Part shown: positions 15,121 through 60,778 of the stretch, one piece after another
How positions within the stretch are numbered: the first letter of the stretch is position 1
Layout of the letters: each line of letters begins with the position of its first letter
Source of the DNA: Synechococcus sp. RS9916
GTDB lineage: Bacteria; Cyanobacteriota; Cyanobacteriia; PCC-6307; Cyanobiaceae
DNA length: 64,000 bases
Direction of reading: 5' to 3'
NCBI RefSeq assembly: GCF_000153825.1
Contig: NZ_DS022299.1
Location: 2,196,869-2,260,868, forward strand
Notes under the pieces: generated by a model
The model's input: the letters and a program-made list of their open reading frames with translations, nothing else
Databases searched by the model: none
What the model was told of the DNA's origin: nothing
Translations under genes and position numbers: made by a program

Positions 15121-16220
15121 TCCCGTGCCCCCACCACCTGGAAGCCTTTGGCTTGGAGGTAGGCCTCTTTACGGGCTTCTTCCTGGTCGACGGCGATCAT
15201 CTCGTTGACCAGTTCTTCCAGGGTGGTGGTGGGCGTCCAGCCAAGCTTCTCGCGGGCGTTGGTGGGATCCCCGAGCAGGGTCTCCACTTCCGCGGGGCGG
15301 AAATAACGAGGATCGATGCGCACCACGATGGCTCCGGTGTCGCTGCGGCGGCCGGTTTCTCTTACACCTGAGCCCTCCCATTGGAGCTGACCCCAACCGA
15401 GGGCCTGGGCGGCGAGCTCAATGAAGCGGCGCACCGATTCTTGGCGGCCGGTGGCAATCACGAAGTCTTCTGGGGTCTCCTGCTGGAGCATGCGCCACTG
15501 CATTTCGACGTAGTCGCGGGCGTGGCCCCAGTCGCGCAGGGAATCGAGGTTGCCCATGTAGAGGCACTGGTCGAGGCCGGCATCAATGCGGGCCAGGCCA
15601 CGGGTGATCTTGCGGGTGACGAAGGTTTCACCCCGCCTGGGGCTCTCGTGATTGAACAGCAGGCCATTGCAGGCATACATGCCGTAGGCCTCGCGGTAGT
15701 TGACGGTGATCCAGTAGGCGTAAAGCTTGGCCACGCCGTAGGGACTACGGGGGTGAAACGGGGTGGTTTCCTTTTGCGGGACCTCCTGAACCAGGCCGTA
15801 GAGCTCGGAGGTGGAGGCTTGATAGATGCGCGTTTTTGCTGTGAGACCGCAGATCCGCACGGCCTCGAGGATGCGCAGGGTGCCGAGGGCATCGACGTTG
15901 GCGGTGTATTCAGGTGCCTCGAAACTCACGGCCACATGGCTCTGTGCGCCGAGGTTGTAGATCTCATCGGGTTGAACCTGCTCGATGATGCGCTGCAGGT
16001 TGCTGCCGTCAGAGAGATCTCCGTAATGAAGGGTGAGGCGCGGAGGCTGTCCTGACCGATCAGTCTCGTGAGGATCTTGATAGAGGTGATCGATGCGGGT
16101 GGTGTTGAAGGAGGAGGCGCGGCGTTTGATGCCGTGGACGGCGTAGCCCTTCTCCAGGAGGAGCTCAGCGAGATAGGAGCCGTCCTGGCCGGTGATCCCA
16201 GTGATCAGAGCTTTTTTCAT
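15117..16220 (-). CDS. gmd: GDP-mannose 4,6-dehydratase
   Basis: Gmd converts GDP-mannose to GDP-4-keto-6-deoxymannose, the precursor of GDP-fucose. The 367-residue protein begins [19 protein letters not shown], has the catalytic region [11 protein letters not shown] and family stretches such as [12 protein letters not shown] and [20 protein letters not shown]. It is the promoter-proximal gene of the minus-strand nucleotide-sugar run and is preceded by a 411-base AT-richer spacer. Confidence 0.96.
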
Positions 16221-16631
16221 CGTCGAACTTTATCGTCGTTGCAGCCTTTGACAGTCACCTGGACGTAAGGATGTGACTTCTTTCATTCATGGTTTGAATC
16301 TCGATCGATGAGCATTGAGGTTTTAAACAATGTTTTACCTGGGCAGGGGTTGCTCTGGAGCTTTTGGATTGTTCCAGAATGCAGTTGCCCTTTAGCTACG
16401 AGGCCAATATCCACTCTTTGTCCGCTTTATTTTGAGTTTTTTAGTGTCTACGGGTCACCTCATTTTTCTGATCTTGTCCGCTGCTCACTAAGGCTGCTAA
16501 GAACTTTTGACCCTGATGAGGTTCCCGCTTTCTTGGGGATCAGTAGCTGAACACTCTGGCTCCTGCTGCGAGAGGGGTTATCGCTTCATCATCCCGCCGG
16601 GCGATACTGGGCCTCAGATCAGCCCATTGCT
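16221..16631. other. AT-rich spacer between gmd and ndhS
   Basis: This 411-base divergent gap must hold the promoters for gmd (minus) and ndhS (plus). By hand count bases 16381-16500 are 45% GC, well below the surrounding genes. An 80-codon plus-strand frame at 16308-16550 has no recognisable protein features and is not accepted. I see no convincing RNA gene or strong hairpin. Confidence 0.6.
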
Positions 16632-16814
16632 ATGGCCAGCGCCACTCCGATTCTTCCTGGCGCCACGGTGAAAGTGGTCGATGCCACTTCGATTTACAAC
16701 GGCTACACCGGGTTTGTGCAACGCATCAGCGGCGATCGCGCTGCTGTGCTGTTTGAAGGCGGCAACTGGGACAAGCTCATCACCATGCGGCTGCGCGACC
16801 TTCAAGCCGCCTGA
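16632..16814 (+). CDS. ndhS: NDH-1 complex subunit NdhS
   Basis: NdhS is the small peripheral subunit of the cyanobacterial/chloroplast NDH-1 complex with an SH3-like fold that helps ferredoxin dock. The 60-residue protein has the family signature, an ILPGATVKVV start, an Y-x-G-Y/F-x-G-F-V-Q-R region and the highly conserved VLFEGGNWDKLITMRLRDL. It is slightly shorter than many homologues. Its TGA overlaps an ATG (TGATG at 16812-16816) that probably begins the following channel gene. Confidence 0.85.
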   Translation: MASATPILPGATVKVVDATSIYNGYTGFVQRISGDRAAVLFEGGNWDKLITMRLRDLQAA

Positions 16815-16850
16815 TGCCAGCCCCCCACCGTCCGCGACCGCCTGGCGCGG

Positions 16851-17648
16851 GTGGTGCTCGAATCCGACACGCGTGCCGGCAGGCTTTACAACCTGGTCGT
16901 TTTCGGCGCGATCCTGCTCAGCGTCGTGGGTCTGCTGTTCGAGCCTGCTCCAGGTCTGGCTTCGGCTTCGTCCGCACTAGTGCCTGCGTGGGTTGACTGG
17001 ATCGACCGTCTGGCCCTGGCGATTTTCGCCGCCGATCTGGTGTTGCATCTGATCGCAAGCCCTAGGCCTCTGGCCTATCTGCGCAGCGTGTATGGCCTGA
17101 TTGATCTGTCGGCGGTGTTGTTTTTTGCCGTGCCGCAGATCAACAGCGGCTTAGTGCTGTGGGTGTTCAAGTTCGGTCGCATCCTGCGGGTCTTTAAGCA
17201 GCTGCGCTTCATGGATGAGGCCCGCGCCCTCGGGGCAGCCCTCAAGGCCAGTGCCCGGCGTATCAGCGTGTTCATTCTGTTTGTGCTGATCCTCCAGGTG
17301 GTGCTCGGCTACGTGATGGTGGTAGTGGAGAGCTTCCATCCACAAAGCCAGTTCCGCTCTGTCGCTCAGGGCGTGTATTGGGCTGTGGTCACCATGACCA
17401 CCGTTGGTTACGGCGACATCGTGCCGCAGACGGCCCTGGGCCGAATCCTTGCCATGGCTGTGATGCTGCTCGGTTTCGGAATCATTGCGATTCCCACAGG
17501 CATCGTCACGGTGGAGGGGCTGCGCCGGGCTGGGGTCCGGGCTGATCTCCGAACGTTCAACTGCGACCAGTGCGGGCAGCCCAATCACCGCGCTAAGGCT
17601 CGGTATTGCGATCGCTGTGGGGCTCAGCTGCCACCTTCAAGACTCTGA
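16851..17648 (+). CDS. Voltage-gated-type potassium channel with C-terminal zinc ribbon
   Basis: A six-transmembrane ion channel. The pore helix and selectivity filter TMTTVGYGD (TVGYGD at residues 184-189 from the GTG) mark it as K+ selective, preceded by S1-S5-like hydrophobic helices and an S4-like segment with FKFGRILRVFKQLRF. The end (about 238-256) has paired CxxC motifs, CDQC and CDRC, typical of a zinc ribbon. The only standard start in frame is GTG at 16851, but coding-like sequence (TVRDRLAR) extends upstream. Removing one C from the C6 run at 16821-16826 would join it to the ATG at 16814 that overlaps the ndhS stop. It overlaps rnc tail to tail by 25 bases. Confidence 0.88.
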   Translation: MVLESDTRAGRLYNLVVFGAILLSVVGLLFEPAPGLASASSALVPAWVDWIDRLALAIFAADLVLHLIASPRPLAYLRSVYGLIDLSAVLFFAVPQINSGLVLWVFKFGRILRVFKQLRFMDEARALGAALKASARRISVFILFVLILQVVLGYVMVVVESFHPQSQFRSVAQGVYWAVVTMTTVGYGDIVPQTALGRILAMAVMLLGFGIIAIPTGIVTVEGLRRAGVRADLRTFNCDQCGQPNHRAKARYCDRCGAQLPPSRL

Positions 17649-34895: not shown

Positions 34896-35849
34896 ATGGT
34901 GAAACCTGCAGGGGTTTGGGTTGTGGCTGCCTGTTTCAACGAGCAGGCCGTGATCACCCATTTCATCGAACGGGTGCTGGCGGTGCCCGGGGTGGAGCGG
35001 TTGGTGCTGATCGATGACGGGTCCCGAGACGGCACCGTTGATCAGATCCGCGCGTTTCAAAAGCATCAACAGCAGCTTGGCGAGCCTGTTCCCGTCACCC
35101 TGTTGGAGCTCACCCGCAATTTCGGCAAGGAGGCGGCGATGCTGGCAGGCCTCGACCATGCCCGAGGGAACTGTGCTGCCGCGGTGTTGATCGATTCCGA
35201 TCTGCAGCACCCGCCCGAGCTGATCGAAGCGATGATCGACCAGTGGAAGGCTGGTGCAGAAGTGGTCACGGCGGTCCGCGATGACAGGGATCAGGAATCC
35301 CGCCTCAAGGTGGCCAGTGCTTCCTGGTTTTACCGGGTGTTCAACAAGCTGGTGGATTCAATTCAGCTCCAGGAAGGGGCCGGCGACTACAGGCTGCTGG
35401 ATGCACCGGTGCTCGAGGCGCTGACCCGGCTGCGGGAATCCAGCCGGTTCTCCAAAGGTCTGTTGCCTTGGACTGGGTTCCGCAGTGTTGAACTGCCTTA
35501 CCAGCGGGTGAGCCGCAGCGGCGGTGCCAGCTCCTGGAGTCCGCTCAAGCTCTGGAGCTATGCCCTTGACGGCATCTTTTCCTTTTCCGTGCTTCCTCTG
35601 AAGGTGTGGAGTGTCATCGGGGTGCTGGTGTCGCTGCTCAGCCTGATCTATGCCCTGGTGATCGTGCTCGACACTGTTTTCACCGGCGTTGATGCTCCAG
35701 GCTTCGCCACCTTGATCGTCGCCATCCTCTTTTTGGGCGGTATTCAGCTGATCGGGATTGGGGTCTTGGGGGAATACATCGGTCGGATTTATGTGGAGGC
35801 CAAGGCCCGCCCCCACTACTTCATCCGCGCGATTGACCGCACCGATTGA
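34896..35849 (+). CDS. GT2 polyprenyl-phosphate sugar synthase (GtrB/ArnC-like)
   Basis: A membrane-anchored family 2 glycosyltransferase that loads a sugar onto undecaprenyl phosphate. The GT-A domain (about residues 1-220) shows NEQAVI, LIDDGSRDGT, LTRNFGKEAAMLAGLDHA and the metal-binding DSDLQHPPEL; conserved GDYRLLDAPV and YQRVSRSGGASSW follow. Two membrane helices (about 230-255 and 267-292) end in GVLGEYIGRIYVEAKARPHYF, the classic tail of this subfamily. It is convergent with, and overlaps by 29 bases, a GtrA-deacetylase fusion gene. That neighbour suggests a lipid-linked aminosugar route. Confidence 0.92.
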   Translation: MVKPAGVWVVAACFNEQAVITHFIERVLAVPGVERLVLIDDGSRDGTVDQIRAFQKHQQQLGEPVPVTLLELTRNFGKEAAMLAGLDHARGNCAAAVLIDSDLQHPPELIEAMIDQWKAGAEVVTAVRDDRDQESRLKVASASWFYRVFNKLVDSIQLQEGAGDYRLLDAPVLEALTRLRESSRFSKGLLPWTGFRSVELPYQRVSRSGGASSWSPLKLWSYALDGIFSFSVLPLKVWSVIGVLVSLLSLIYALVIVLDTVFTGVDAPGFATLIVAILFLGGIQLIGIGVLGEYIGRIYVEAKARPHYFIRAIDRTD

Positions 35850-37128
35850 GGGTGCGCACGGCCTCCCATTCCCGTTGGCGCCAAGGGGAACCGGCGAATG
35901 GAGCTGACACCCCAAACCCATCCCTCTGCAGGTCGCGCTCGAGCGGAGCGCCTGGATGAACCAGCACTTGGGGTGGCGTTTGCGACGGGTTCTGAGCTGG
36001 AGCTCGACTGCTCAGTTCCCTCCACCCGGCCTCCAAGGCCAGGGGCCCCATCTGCCCGGTGAACAGCACGCCCGCAAATCCGTCATTGCTGGCGATGCCC
36101 TGTCTGCGCTGACGCCCTGCTGCCCGGGTGGTGAGCACTTGCAGGACTCCCCATTTCAGCAGCCCAGCACTGCGGATTGCGGCACGCCAGCTGCTGAGGG
36201 GGAGCCCTGTGGGCAGTGGCTCAGCGGTGCTGCGCATCCAGGTGATGCCTTTCTCCTGCGCCAGGTTGAGCAGGGTGTCGTGGATCAGGGGGACGAGGTG
36301 GATGTGCTGGTGGCCGTCTAGAGCCAGTGGCGCGACACCGCCCACCAGTTGCTCGAAGCGTTCGATCTGAGCGTTGATTTCGGCTCGCAGCTGGCGCCTG
36401 ACCCTGCGGCGACGCGGGTGCCTAGGCGGGAGCAATGAGATCAGCAGCCACTGTCCGAACGACAGCATCAGATGGCCATTGGCGTCGACCAGATCAGGGA
36501 TGCTCGCAGCCGGTGCACAGCAGGGACCTTCGGTGAGGCAGAGATGCAGGCAAAGTTGCAGATCGCTCCGTCTTGCCTCCAGGTTTTTCCAGCGCCTGAC
36601 GGCAGGTTGCACCTCAGCACCCTGCACCAGCAGGCTGGCGCCATCGAGCTGGCCTGCTTCGATCAACGCCAGGATCGCTTCGTTGCTGGCCTCACTCAGC
36701 CCCAGGTCATCGGCATGGAGGCGGGGCCGGCTGCCGCTCTGACGGCGGCGTTGACTGAACCGGGCCGCTCGTGACCAGATCAGGGCATTGAGCACGGTGG
36801 GGGTGAACACCAGCATGGCGAGCCGCACGGGTGCGGGAACCAGTGCCGGCAGCACCAGAGGCAACAGGCTGCAGATGGTGAGATTGACCGCGTATTGCAG
36901 CACCAGCCAGCGGCGCGCAAAGCGGGCGCCGCCGGTTTCCGGGCGGAAGGTGAAGCGGGCATGGCCGAGATACCCCGCCAGGGATGCGGCCAGGAAGGCC
37001 AGGGGATTGGCGAGCCACAGCGGCATCACCACACCGAGGGCCAGCAGCACCCCTGCATGAACCGCGGCGGCCGCGACGCCGACGAGGCCATAGAGGCTGA
37101 TTCGGGTGCTGATGGAGCGCAAAGCCAT
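35821..37128 (-). CDS. GtrA-like flippase fused to YdjC/ChbG-type deacetylase
   Basis: Two domains in one 435-residue protein. Residues 5-130 form four membrane segments of the GtrA family, thought to flip polyprenyl-phosphate sugars (RISLYGLVGVAAAAVHAG, then YLGHARFTFR). From about 135 a YdjC/ChbG/HpnK deacetylase domain follows, with HADDLGLSEASN (138-149), metal-site histidines in DGHQHIHLVP (273, 275, 277) and a late LVHPGAP. These hydrolases remove N-acetyl groups from sugars. I chose ATG 37128 because GtrA similarity begins there and AAGGGGGG lies 8 bases upstream. It pairs with the overlapping GT2 gene. Confidence 0.88.
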   Translation of the reverse strand: MALRSISTRISLYGLVGVAAAAVHAGVLLALGVVMPLWLANPLAFLAASLAGYLGHARFTFRPETGGARFARRWLVLQYAVNLTICSLLPLVLPALVPAPVRLAMLVFTPTVLNALIWSRAARFSQRRRQSGSRPRLHADDLGLSEASNEAILALIEAGQLDGASLLVQGAEVQPAVRRWKNLEARRSDLQLCLHLCLTEGPCCAPAASIPDLVDANGHLMLSFGQWLLISLLPPRHPRRRRVRRQLRAEINAQIERFEQLVGGVAPLALDGHQHIHLVPLIHDTLLNLAQEKGITWMRSTAEPLPTGLPLSSWRAAIRSAGLLKWGVLQVLTTRAAGRQRRQGIASNDGFAGVLFTGQMGPLALEAGWRELSSRAPAQNPSQTPPQVLVHPGAPLERDLQRDGFGVSAPFAGSPWRQREWEAVRTLNRCGQSRG

Positions 37129-58042: not shown

Positions 58043-59285
58043 AGCCTCCCCTGTGCAGCTGCCAGGTATTCCAGACAGTGTGTTGCTGGCCTTGCAGGAC
58101 GAGGCGCGGTTGCAGGGTGGCGTGCGGCTGGCGTTGGTGGGGGGTGCGGTGCGCGATGCCCTGCTGCATCACAACCATCGGGATCCCTGGCGTGAGCTGC
58201 CGGATCTGGATCTCGTGGTGGAGGGCAGCACAGAAGCCCTGGCTCAGGGGTTACGCCAACGGCTTGGTGCTGAACGGGTGCCGGAGCTGCGGGTGCATGG
58301 CAGTTTCGGCACGGTGGAGATGGTGCTCGACGGCGTGCTGCTGGATTTGGCCCAGGCTCGTCAGGAGCGTTATCTCGCCCCTGGAGATAACCCTGTGGTG
58401 GAGCCAGGCTCTTTAAGGAACGACCTGGCGCGGCGCGATTTCACGGTCAATGCCATGGCGCTGGTGCTGGGCGTTGGAGACGCTGAGCCTGAATTGCTGG
58501 ATCTGCATGGGGGGCAGGAGGACCTGGAGGCGCGTCAGCTGAACTTCCTGCACGTGGGAAGTGTGCAAGACGATCCCACCCGTGTGGTGCGGGGGGCTCG
58601 TTACGCGGCGCGGCTTGGATTTGGGCTGGCTCCCCAGGCCTTGGAGCAAGTGCAAACCACGGTGGGGGCCTGGCCCTGGCCATGGCGCCAAGGTGATGCC
58701 CTCGATCGGGTGCCGCCAGCTTTGGGCACCCGCTTGCGCATGGAGTTGGAGTTGCTGTTGGGCCGGGAGCCCTGGCGGCAGGCGTTGGGGTATTTGCAGG
58801 CTTGGGGTGCGTTGCCCCTGTTGGACCCATCGCTGCAGAACGATCGCTTGTTGTTGCGTCGTTTGCGCTGGGCCGAGCGGTTGGGTGTTCCTTTGCTCTC
58901 CGCCCTGGTGGCGGCCTCCGCATCGTCCCTGGCCTTGGCCCAGCGGCTGCAGTTGCCCTTGCAGCAGCAACGTTGGATCGAGGAGCGGATGGGGTTTCAG
59001 ATCTGGTTGGCGGAGCAGGTGCTGCCCTGTTCCTGGCAGGACTGGTCTGCGGCCCGCTGGACGGAAGCCTTGGAATCACGCCCCTGGAGTGCGGAGGTGG
59101 TGGCGCTGGAGGTGGCGTTGATGGGCCCCTGCTGGCGGCCGTTGTTGCGTTGGTGGGGGCGTTGGCGCCATGTTCAATCACCGCAGACAGCGCGCGACTT
59201 GATCGCAACGGGCCTCAAACCCGGTCCTCAGCTCGGGGAGACCTTGCGCCAATTGCGTTTGCAGCGTCTGGAGGCGATGCGATGA
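58035..59285 (+). CDS. cca: tRNA nucleotidyltransferase / poly(A) polymerase family (CCA-adding type)
   Basis: Adds or repairs the CCA end of tRNA (class II nucleotidyltransferase). The head has ALVGGAVRDALL, the metal-binding DxD in LPDLDLVVEGS, and the RRDFTVNAMAL motif; the NTP-recognition D-P-T-R-V-V-R-G-A-R-Y-A-A-R-L-G-F helix follows. The C-terminal half is longer and lacks clear HD-type residues. Start ATG 58035 (MAEASPVQLPGIPD, 416 residues) overlaps the upstream gene by 8 bases; the frame open to 57789 lies in that gene. The tRNA in this window lacks encoded CCA, as expected. It is an unusual guest in a glycan operon. Confidence 0.9.
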   Translation: MAEASPVQLPGIPDSVLLALQDEARLQGGVRLALVGGAVRDALLHHNHRDPWRELPDLDLVVEGSTEALAQGLRQRLGAERVPELRVHGSFGTVEMVLDGVLLDLAQARQERYLAPGDNPVVEPGSLRNDLARRDFTVNAMALVLGVGDAEPELLDLHGGQEDLEARQLNFLHVGSVQDDPTRVVRGARYAARLGFGLAPQALEQVQTTVGAWPWPWRQGDALDRVPPALGTRLRMELELLLGREPWRQALGYLQAWGALPLLDPSLQNDRLLLRRLRWAERLGVPLLSALVAASASSLALAQRLQLPLQQQRWIEERMGFQIWLAEQVLPCSWQDWSAARWTEALESRPWSAEVVALEVALMGPCWRPLLRWWGRWRHVQSPQTARDLIATGLKPGPQLGETLRQLRLQRLEAMR

Positions 59286-60778
59286 GCGGAGCGCTCGGGG
59301 TTGTACGCCCACGTCTGGGACTGGTGTTGGTGGTGCTGGTCTGCAGCGTGTTTGCCCTACGGGCGCTGCTGCTGATTGATGCCACAGGCCTCTGGAGTGA
59401 TGAGCTCTACACCGTGGGCAAGAGTTTTCAGCCCAGTTATGCGGCGCTGCTGGCGATGCTGCGGCTGGATACCCATCCGCCGCTCTATTACTCATTGGTG
59501 TGGATCTGGGGGCGGGTGCTGCCGGCTTCGGCCGTCACCTTGCGGCTGTTCTCGTGGTTGGCCTATCTGGCGGGCGGTCTGCTGATCACGGCGCAGGCTG
59601 GAGCTCTGGCCAGGCGGTGGTCTGGGGCCAAGCCGCGGCTGGCGGTGGCTGCTGCAGCGCTGATGGCCTTCTGTTCGCCCTACCCCGTGCGCTTTGCGAT
59701 CGAGGGCAAGGGCTATGCCCTGTTGGTGTTGCTGGTGGCGTTGGCCTGGTGGTGGCGCCAGCGTCACCAGTGGCTGGGCTACGGCATCAGCGTCGTGTTG
59801 GCGGCACTCACCCATTACTACGGACTCTTCCTGTTTGCCGCCGCCGCTGTGTGGGACGGCTGGCGTGGCCGTCGCAGGGCTTCCCTTGTTGCGTCGGTTG
59901 GGTTGGTGCCGGCTTTGCTGTGGATGGTGCAGGCTTCGGCCTACCTAATGCGCAATGGCACAGGTGCCTGGATCGGTCGGCCGGATTTCGCATTGTTAGA
60001 AGACACCCTCGCCAGGGCTCTGGGCCTTTGGCCGCTGCCCAAGCTGGCTTTGCTGCTGCTGGTGGCGGTGGTGGTTGCGCGGGCAGGTCTGCAGGCGAGC
60101 CCACCGGATCAGAACCCCCGTTCAGAGAGTCCTGGTTTGGCTGATCGCAGCGGGCTGACGCCGAGCTTGCTGATGGTCGGCGGCGTCGTGGCGATGTCGT
60201 TCTGGAAACCAATGGCGTTCAGTCGTTATTTCGTCGTGCTGCTCCCGGCTTTGATTCCCTGGTTGGCCGTGCGCCTGTCGGCGTTGCCGTTGACGCAGCG
60301 TGGCCGCGGCGTGGTGGCTTTGGCGGCTGCAGCGCTGGTGCTCAGTTGGTGGTGGCACAGCTTCTGCGAGTTGGATCCGGCCGTGAATGGCCATGGGGCT
60401 CGGGAGGCGGATCAGTTCCAGTTGGTTAGTCGCGCCTTGGCGGCGGAGCCCCATCGCTTCTCGCGGCGAGAACGGCTGTTCAATCTCAGCGACCGCATGG
60501 AGGTGGCGGCTGGTCGGATGGCGCAGCCCGAGGTTCCCTGGGGTGGGGCATCCGAGTTGGATCAACTGCTGGTTTCGTCTGCTTTGCCTGACGAGCTTTG
60601 GCTGGCCGATAGCGGCGATGTTGAGGGAACTCGTCGGCGGCTGAAGGCGTTGCGGCGGCGGGCGGAAGGGGCGAGTTACCGCTGCCAAAAGGCCGAAATC
60701 GCAGGCTCTGGCAGTGCTCCCTATGCCCAGGTGCAGCAGTGCCAGCTGGAGGTACCCCTACATTCAGAGCACCGCTGA
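59282..60778 (+). CDS. GT39-like membrane glycosyltransferase (PMT/ArnT type)
   Basis: A polytopic enzyme of 498 residues that moves a sugar from a polyprenyl-phosphate donor on the periplasmic side. About ten hydrophobic helices are visible. The first loop has the acidic pair in ATGLWSDELYTVGKSFQPSY and the nearby LDTHPPLYYSLVWIWGRV, the hallmark of GT39/ArnT-like enzymes. A soluble tail of about 120 residues (with ELDPAVNGHGAREADQF) follows. It starts in an ATGA overlap with cca. It could take sugars made by the GT2 enzyme at 34.9 kb. Confidence 0.87.
   Translation: MSGALGVVRPRLGLVLVVLVCSVFALRALLLIDATGLWSDELYTVGKSFQPSYAALLAMLRLDTHPPLYYSLVWIWGRVLPASAVTLRLFSWLAYLAGGLLITAQAGALARRWSGAKPRLAVAAAALMAFCSPYPVRFAIEGKGYALLVLLVALAWWWRQRHQWLGYGISVVLAALTHYYGLFLFAAAAVWDGWRGRRRASLVASVGLVPALLWMVQASAYLMRNGTGAWIGRPDFALLEDTLARALGLWPLPKLALLLLVAVVVARAGLQASPPDQNPRSESPGLADRSGLTPSLLMVGGVVAMSFWKPMAFSRYFVVLLPALIPWLAVRLSALPLTQRGRGVVALAAAALVLSWWWHSFCELDPAVNGHGAREADQFQLVSRALAAEPHRFSRRERLFNLSDRMEVAAGRMAQPEVPWGGASELDQLLVSSALPDELWLADSGDVEGTRRRLKALRRRAEGASYRCQKAEIAGSGSAPYAQVQQCQLEVPLHSEHR

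Follow-up and report, generated by a model that had tools for sequence, protein, structure and literature searches.

A GT2 glycosyltransferase gene of Synechococcus sp. RS9916 and the gene that converges on it, in which a GtrA flippase is fused to a YdjC-type deacetylase, constitute a real and conserved pair, largely as the original prediction had proposed from the DNA letters alone. We consider it probable (roughly 0.75) that the two genes work together in a lipid-linked aminosugar route that resembles the NaxD/FlmF2/FlmK and Lgm routes but has its flippase and its deacetylase in one chain. Read from sequence, both the set of genes and the deacetylase active site would place the pair within the NaxD/FlmF2/FlmK route. 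The features concerned, numbered along the whole 64,000-nucleotide stretch of DNA analysed (the window), are as follows.

34896-35849, forward strand: GT2 gene, a polyprenyl-phosphate sugar synthase of the GtrB/FlmF2 type with predicted UDP-HexNAc donor (PF00535, E 1.3e-25)
35208-35210, forward strand: codon of GT2 His105, the residue after D-x-D-L-Q, aligned with the position of PfDPMS His94
35821-35849, unstranded: 29-base overlap of the convergent GT2 and fusion genes, from the ORF coordinates
35821-37128, reverse strand: GtrA-YdjC fusion gene, 435 residues, ATG at 37128 (ORF calls, Pfam and relatives)
35860-36720, reverse strand: YdjC deacetylase domain, residues 137-423 (PF04794, E 1.9e-41; ChbG-type fold)
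36742-37128, reverse strand: GtrA flippase domain, residues 1-129 (PF04138, E 2.4e-9; helices in the predicted model)

The open reading frames, their strands and their overlap were all found as first described, and the Pfam match bears out the assignment of the forward gene to the GT2 family. Its product is an FlmF2 homologue, ~36% identical to the FlmF2-like protein of a Francisella endosymbiont, and its closest solved enzyme is GtrB Sll0501 (5EKP, E 1.9e-82). The 435-residue protein, for which both GtrA and YdjC matches had been expected, indeed matched PF04138 at residues 13-91 (37.8 bits, cut-off 26.1) and PF04794 at residues 137-423 (143.1 bits, curated score 29.7); the start codon is backed by the alignment of fusion relatives, and a genome search indicated that the fusion is the sole YdjC protein of RS9916. 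In the model predicted from 34 homologues (mean pLDDT 93.3, pTM 0.87), the GtrA part forms four helices (2-32, 37-59, 72-92 and 99-129), and a PDB fold search relates the YdjC half to ChbG (7vi8, E 7.9e-10) and other deacetylases. Residues D140, D141, H195, H273, H277 and H391, which in this family should be the metal-binding and catalytic residues, are invariant in 34 of 34 aligned sequences, so that the C-terminal domain matches YdjC and also keeps the catalytic Asp and His residues whose conservation had been in question.

Near-full-length fusions, down to ~40% identity, were present in 46 of the 201 Cyanobiaceae genomes surveyed. One of these copies, in G120 (L034:4708-5757), is degenerate: several stops interrupt its frame, and the GT2 next to it is intact. 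Because the fusion recurs at full length in this number of genomes, with the GT2 adjoining it in each locus opened, it is not a chance joining. In every such locus the GT2 converges on the fusion, and the pair is flanked by icd and the heme oxygenase gene in the window and likewise in the majority of close relatives opened. Synechococcus WH7803 is among the strains that have the pair (L063). The proposed survey of co-occurrence was favorable from the side of the GT2 as well: its fusion-type clade, delimited by at least 57% identity, occurs in 46 genomes (the next GT2s reach at most 51%), and 45 of them also carry the fusion. The view that such a route would be new in a picocyanobacterium is better stated as a candidate route widespread in the family; the two-gene unit occurs in many ocean and some freshwater picocyanobacteria. 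When 386 genomes from across the phylum were surveyed, the matches listed outside the family consisted essentially of the YdjC part alone. The joined form appears, on sequence, to be particular to these picocyanobacteria, its separate parts being known from proteobacteria; none of the papers searched mentions GtrA and YdjC together.

The only genome with the GT2 clade and no fusion, G131, has a gene (L032:7772-8164) in which GtrA runs directly into the fusion tail KEWTSAQQL: the YdjC domain has been lost in frame, and the GT2 is kept together with its His. Such a case, together with the degenerate fusion beside an intact GT2 in G120, would fit YdjC being an optional, tuning component that sets charge in most lineages, upon a core of N-acetylhexosamine decoration of the CsbB/GtcA kind. 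This reading is compatible with the aminosugar route and differs from it in what is regarded as essential, but YdjC is lost or degenerate in only 2 of the 47 genomes with the locus and its active site is otherwise invariant in the 34 aligned sequences, and we hold it to be unlikely. A different rearrangement is found in G052 (L037:8089-10365), where the fusion lies beside a GT2 of another clade (30% identity) that also bears the His, in what is apparently a partner swap.

The donor sugar was the weak point of the original prediction, because the closest solved GT2, GtrB Sll0501 of Synechocystis, makes Und-P-glucose (PMC4728340). In the GT2 tree the fusion GT2s also lie next to the hexose-type GtrB and the GT2s of cyanobacteria with GtrA only, apart from the YdjC partners of proteobacteria. 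Both facts would agree with an ordinary GtrA/GtrB hexose decoration, in which the GT2 makes Und-P-glucose, GtrA serves as an anchor for YdjC and YdjC acts on some other substrate. Against it stand the strict pairing of the GT2 clade with YdjC, the His of the swapped GT2 in G052, and His105 itself, which represents the non-hexose state at a sugar-contacting site; in consequence, we regard hexose decoration as quite improbable.

Upon comparison of the groups, a single column, the residue after D-x-D-L-Q, separates YdjC-linked GT2s from the others. All 81 GT2s adjoining YdjC have His there. Of the other cyanobacterial GT2s, 22 in number, 21 have Asp, the lone His being that of G131, which has lost its YdjC; GtrB Sll0501 has Asp. 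The equivalent residue of PfDPMS, His94, contacts the donor sugar (PMC5526996). Among enzymes of known donor, His is found in Listeria Lmo2550 and S. aureus CsbB, and Asp in Listeria GtlA and the GtrB proteins of SfV and P22; adjoining genes served to identify those from Listeria and S. aureus. Glucose is presumably the donor of both phage enzymes, according to annotation. Lmo2550 and CsbB use GlcNAc, and GtlA uses galactose (PMC8035078). In the Francisella endosymbiont, the YdjC-adjoining GT2 has His and a second, broken GT2 has Asp. This pattern agrees as well, since FlmF1 of Francisella is the glucose enzyme and FlmF2 the GalNAc enzyme.

In a second set of 81 proteobacterial GT2s, His occupied the column in 20 of 20 with YdjC, and those without YdjC comprised 55 Asp, 5 His and 1 Ala. 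Fisher's test gave 1e-14 for the link between His and YdjC, a figure inflated by relatedness, and a phylogeny-corrected test reduced it to ~5 independent concordant pairs with 0 discordant (p ~0.06). Five proteobacterial His-bearing GT2s (L211, L224, L238, L266 and L267) have no YdjC within the stretch read; by their sequence they are possibly Und-P-HexNAc synthases acting without deacetylation or with an unlinked deacetylase. Since the tree places the fusion GT2s beside the hexose-type clade, a separate origin has to be assumed for their His. This residue by itself is no proof of a HexNAc donor, because the mannose-specific DPMS likewise has His at the donor position (PMC5526996); the residue pattern favours an N-acetylhexosamine, GlcNAc or GalNAc, as the donor of the GT2. 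The His/Asp rule offers a simple and testable predictor of the donor sugar for a large and mostly uncharacterised GT2 family.

A hopanoid role, with the YdjC domain as an HpnK-like deacetylase of N-acetylglucosaminyl hopanoid, is very improbable: HpnK is the best-scoring NCBIfam model for this domain (110.7 bits, E 7.4e-32), but the score falls far below the TIGR03473 cut-off of 232.6 bits, so that the fusion is not an HpnK member, a stand-alone YdjC of the family passes that cut-off with 274.5 bits, and the partners are a GtrB/FlmF2-type GT2 and, in the fusion, GtrA.

The lipid-linked aminosugar route is further favored by the company that the same parts keep in other organisms. YdjC relatives of proteobacteria adjoin GT2s of the same family, often with GtrA and an ArnT-like GT-C. 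In Francisella, Und-P-GalNAc is made by a GT2, deacetylated by NaxD and moved by an ArnT-like enzyme. The cyanobacterial pair shares with this FlmF2/NaxD/FlmK system homologous GT2 and YdjC genes side by side and an ArnT-like GT-C in the proposed route, and differs from it in that the Francisella-type locus lacks GtrA, has a free-standing deacetylase of 269 residues and a local GT-C, and serves lipid A as acceptor; the endosymbiont (L121) likewise has GT2 and YdjC side by side and an ArnT-like gene, without GtrA. Closer in content is the Chromobacterium operon, with ArnT, GT2, GtrA and YdjC in a row. Together with its relatives in Alcaligenaceae and Acinetobacter (Lgm-type), it comprises the same activities with GtrA and YdjC close together, but these are separate genes, all four stand in one row, and the cyanobacterial GT2 belongs to another clade. 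Unfused GT2, GtrA and YdjC genes are adjacent also in Herminiimonas, and Acinetobacter has the same parts unfused and adjacent. Most simply, the cyanobacterial form would have arisen when GtrA and YdjC were joined. The gtrA-gtrB-gtrC systems (SfV, P22; CsbB-GtcA-YfhO) share with the pair a GT2 and a GtrA flippase but lack a deacetylase, their phage GtrB being of the Asp type with glucose as the presumed sugar and their CsbB type having His. GtrB Sll0501, with its different product and its Asp in place of the His of the window GT2, is not known to have a YdjC partner.

In Cyanobium-type genomes the GT2, the fusion and an ArnT-like gene share one locus, the latter ending 7 bases before the fusion and being 40% identical to the ArnT of Chromobacterium. 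This ArnT-like gene is also beside the fusion in G081; the Cyanobium lineage was the only one in which an ArnT was seen at the locus, and a search of the RS9916 genome with it gave no match at 1e-12. In a Cyanobium metagenome-assembled genome (L065:1451-7365), a DPM-like GT2, two ArnT-like GT-C genes and the fusion follow one another on one strand.

In the mechanism that we propose, (i) the GT2 would move an N-acetylhexosamine from its UDP form onto undecaprenyl phosphate at the cytoplasmic face, (ii) the cytoplasmic YdjC domain would remove the acetyl group from the lipid-linked sugar, (iii) the GtrA domain of the same chain would carry the resulting Und-P-hexosamine to the outer leaflet, and (iv) an ArnT-type GT-C encoded elsewhere in the genome would pass the amino sugar to an envelope glycan. 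In GtcA, a GtrA protein, helices 2 and 3 are connected on the cytoplasmic side and helices 3 and 4 on the extracellular side (PMC7389260), so that both ends of GtrA should be cytoplasmic; a run of Arg after the fourth helix of the fusion is in keeping with a cytoplasmic C-terminal side. YdjC would thus face the side of the GT2 and would therefore act before flipping. As had been suggested, the fusion may reasonably be read as coupling deacetylation with flipping. More tentatively, and as a proposal against which we would still lean, a single protein may deacetylate the lipid-linked N-acetylhexosamine and flip it in such a way that the sugar leaves the cytoplasm exclusively as the amine, acting as a substrate-editing flippase for an acceptor other than lipid A, with the donor specificity of the GT2 set largely by one Asp-to-His change. 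Were the route confirmed, abundant marine cells of the Synechococcus and Prochlorococcus type would carry a positively charged amino sugar on their envelope through a route so far described in proteobacteria, with possible effects on grazing, phage adsorption and cation binding, and the fusion would be a direct handle on substrate recognition and flipping by GtrA proteins.

Regarding the last step, the original prediction had counted three activities in the window; the GT2 and the fused YdjC and GtrA stand, and the GT39/ArnT-like transferase placed at 59282-60778 falls. This protein matched no Pfam family at 1e-3 (GT87 came at 0.011) and no ArnT sequence. In its predicted fold (pLDDT 81.5), ArnT is the best match but a weak one (E 2.8e-3, TM 0.51), which makes it some GT-C. 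Present in 25 of the 201 family genomes, the gene does not track the pair across them, and it is discarded as the ArnT partner on sequence and distribution, despite its GT-C-like predicted fold. A counterpart from a different genus (G138, L176) shares 75% identity with it, as close as those within the window's own genus, a hint that the gene has passed from one genus to another.

The clear ArnT homologue of the genome (C1:1337820-1339673; 5EZM, E 1e-29) is possible but uninformative as partner, since homologues are near universal in the family (176 of 201 genomes). Regarding acceptors, Synechococcus WH8102 and CC9311 reportedly have a lipid A without phosphate, glucosamine being a minor LPS sugar (PMC4515613), so that the usual acceptor, that used by Francisella and Bordetella, may be missing here. 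Another GT-C gene, C1:1691103-1692740, has homologues in 28 of 30 near-complete fusion genomes vs 51 of 101 others (p 1e-5, kinship ignored), and one of the two fusion genomes without it is G081, which has the local ArnT. Because its match to ArnT is weak and no PDB chain matched it, we treat it as a lead only for the transferase. Beside this GT-C lie a DUF2079 membrane protein (PF09852, E 4.2e-100) and a converging frame for a large membrane protein (L047:14229-15683 and 15556-17172).
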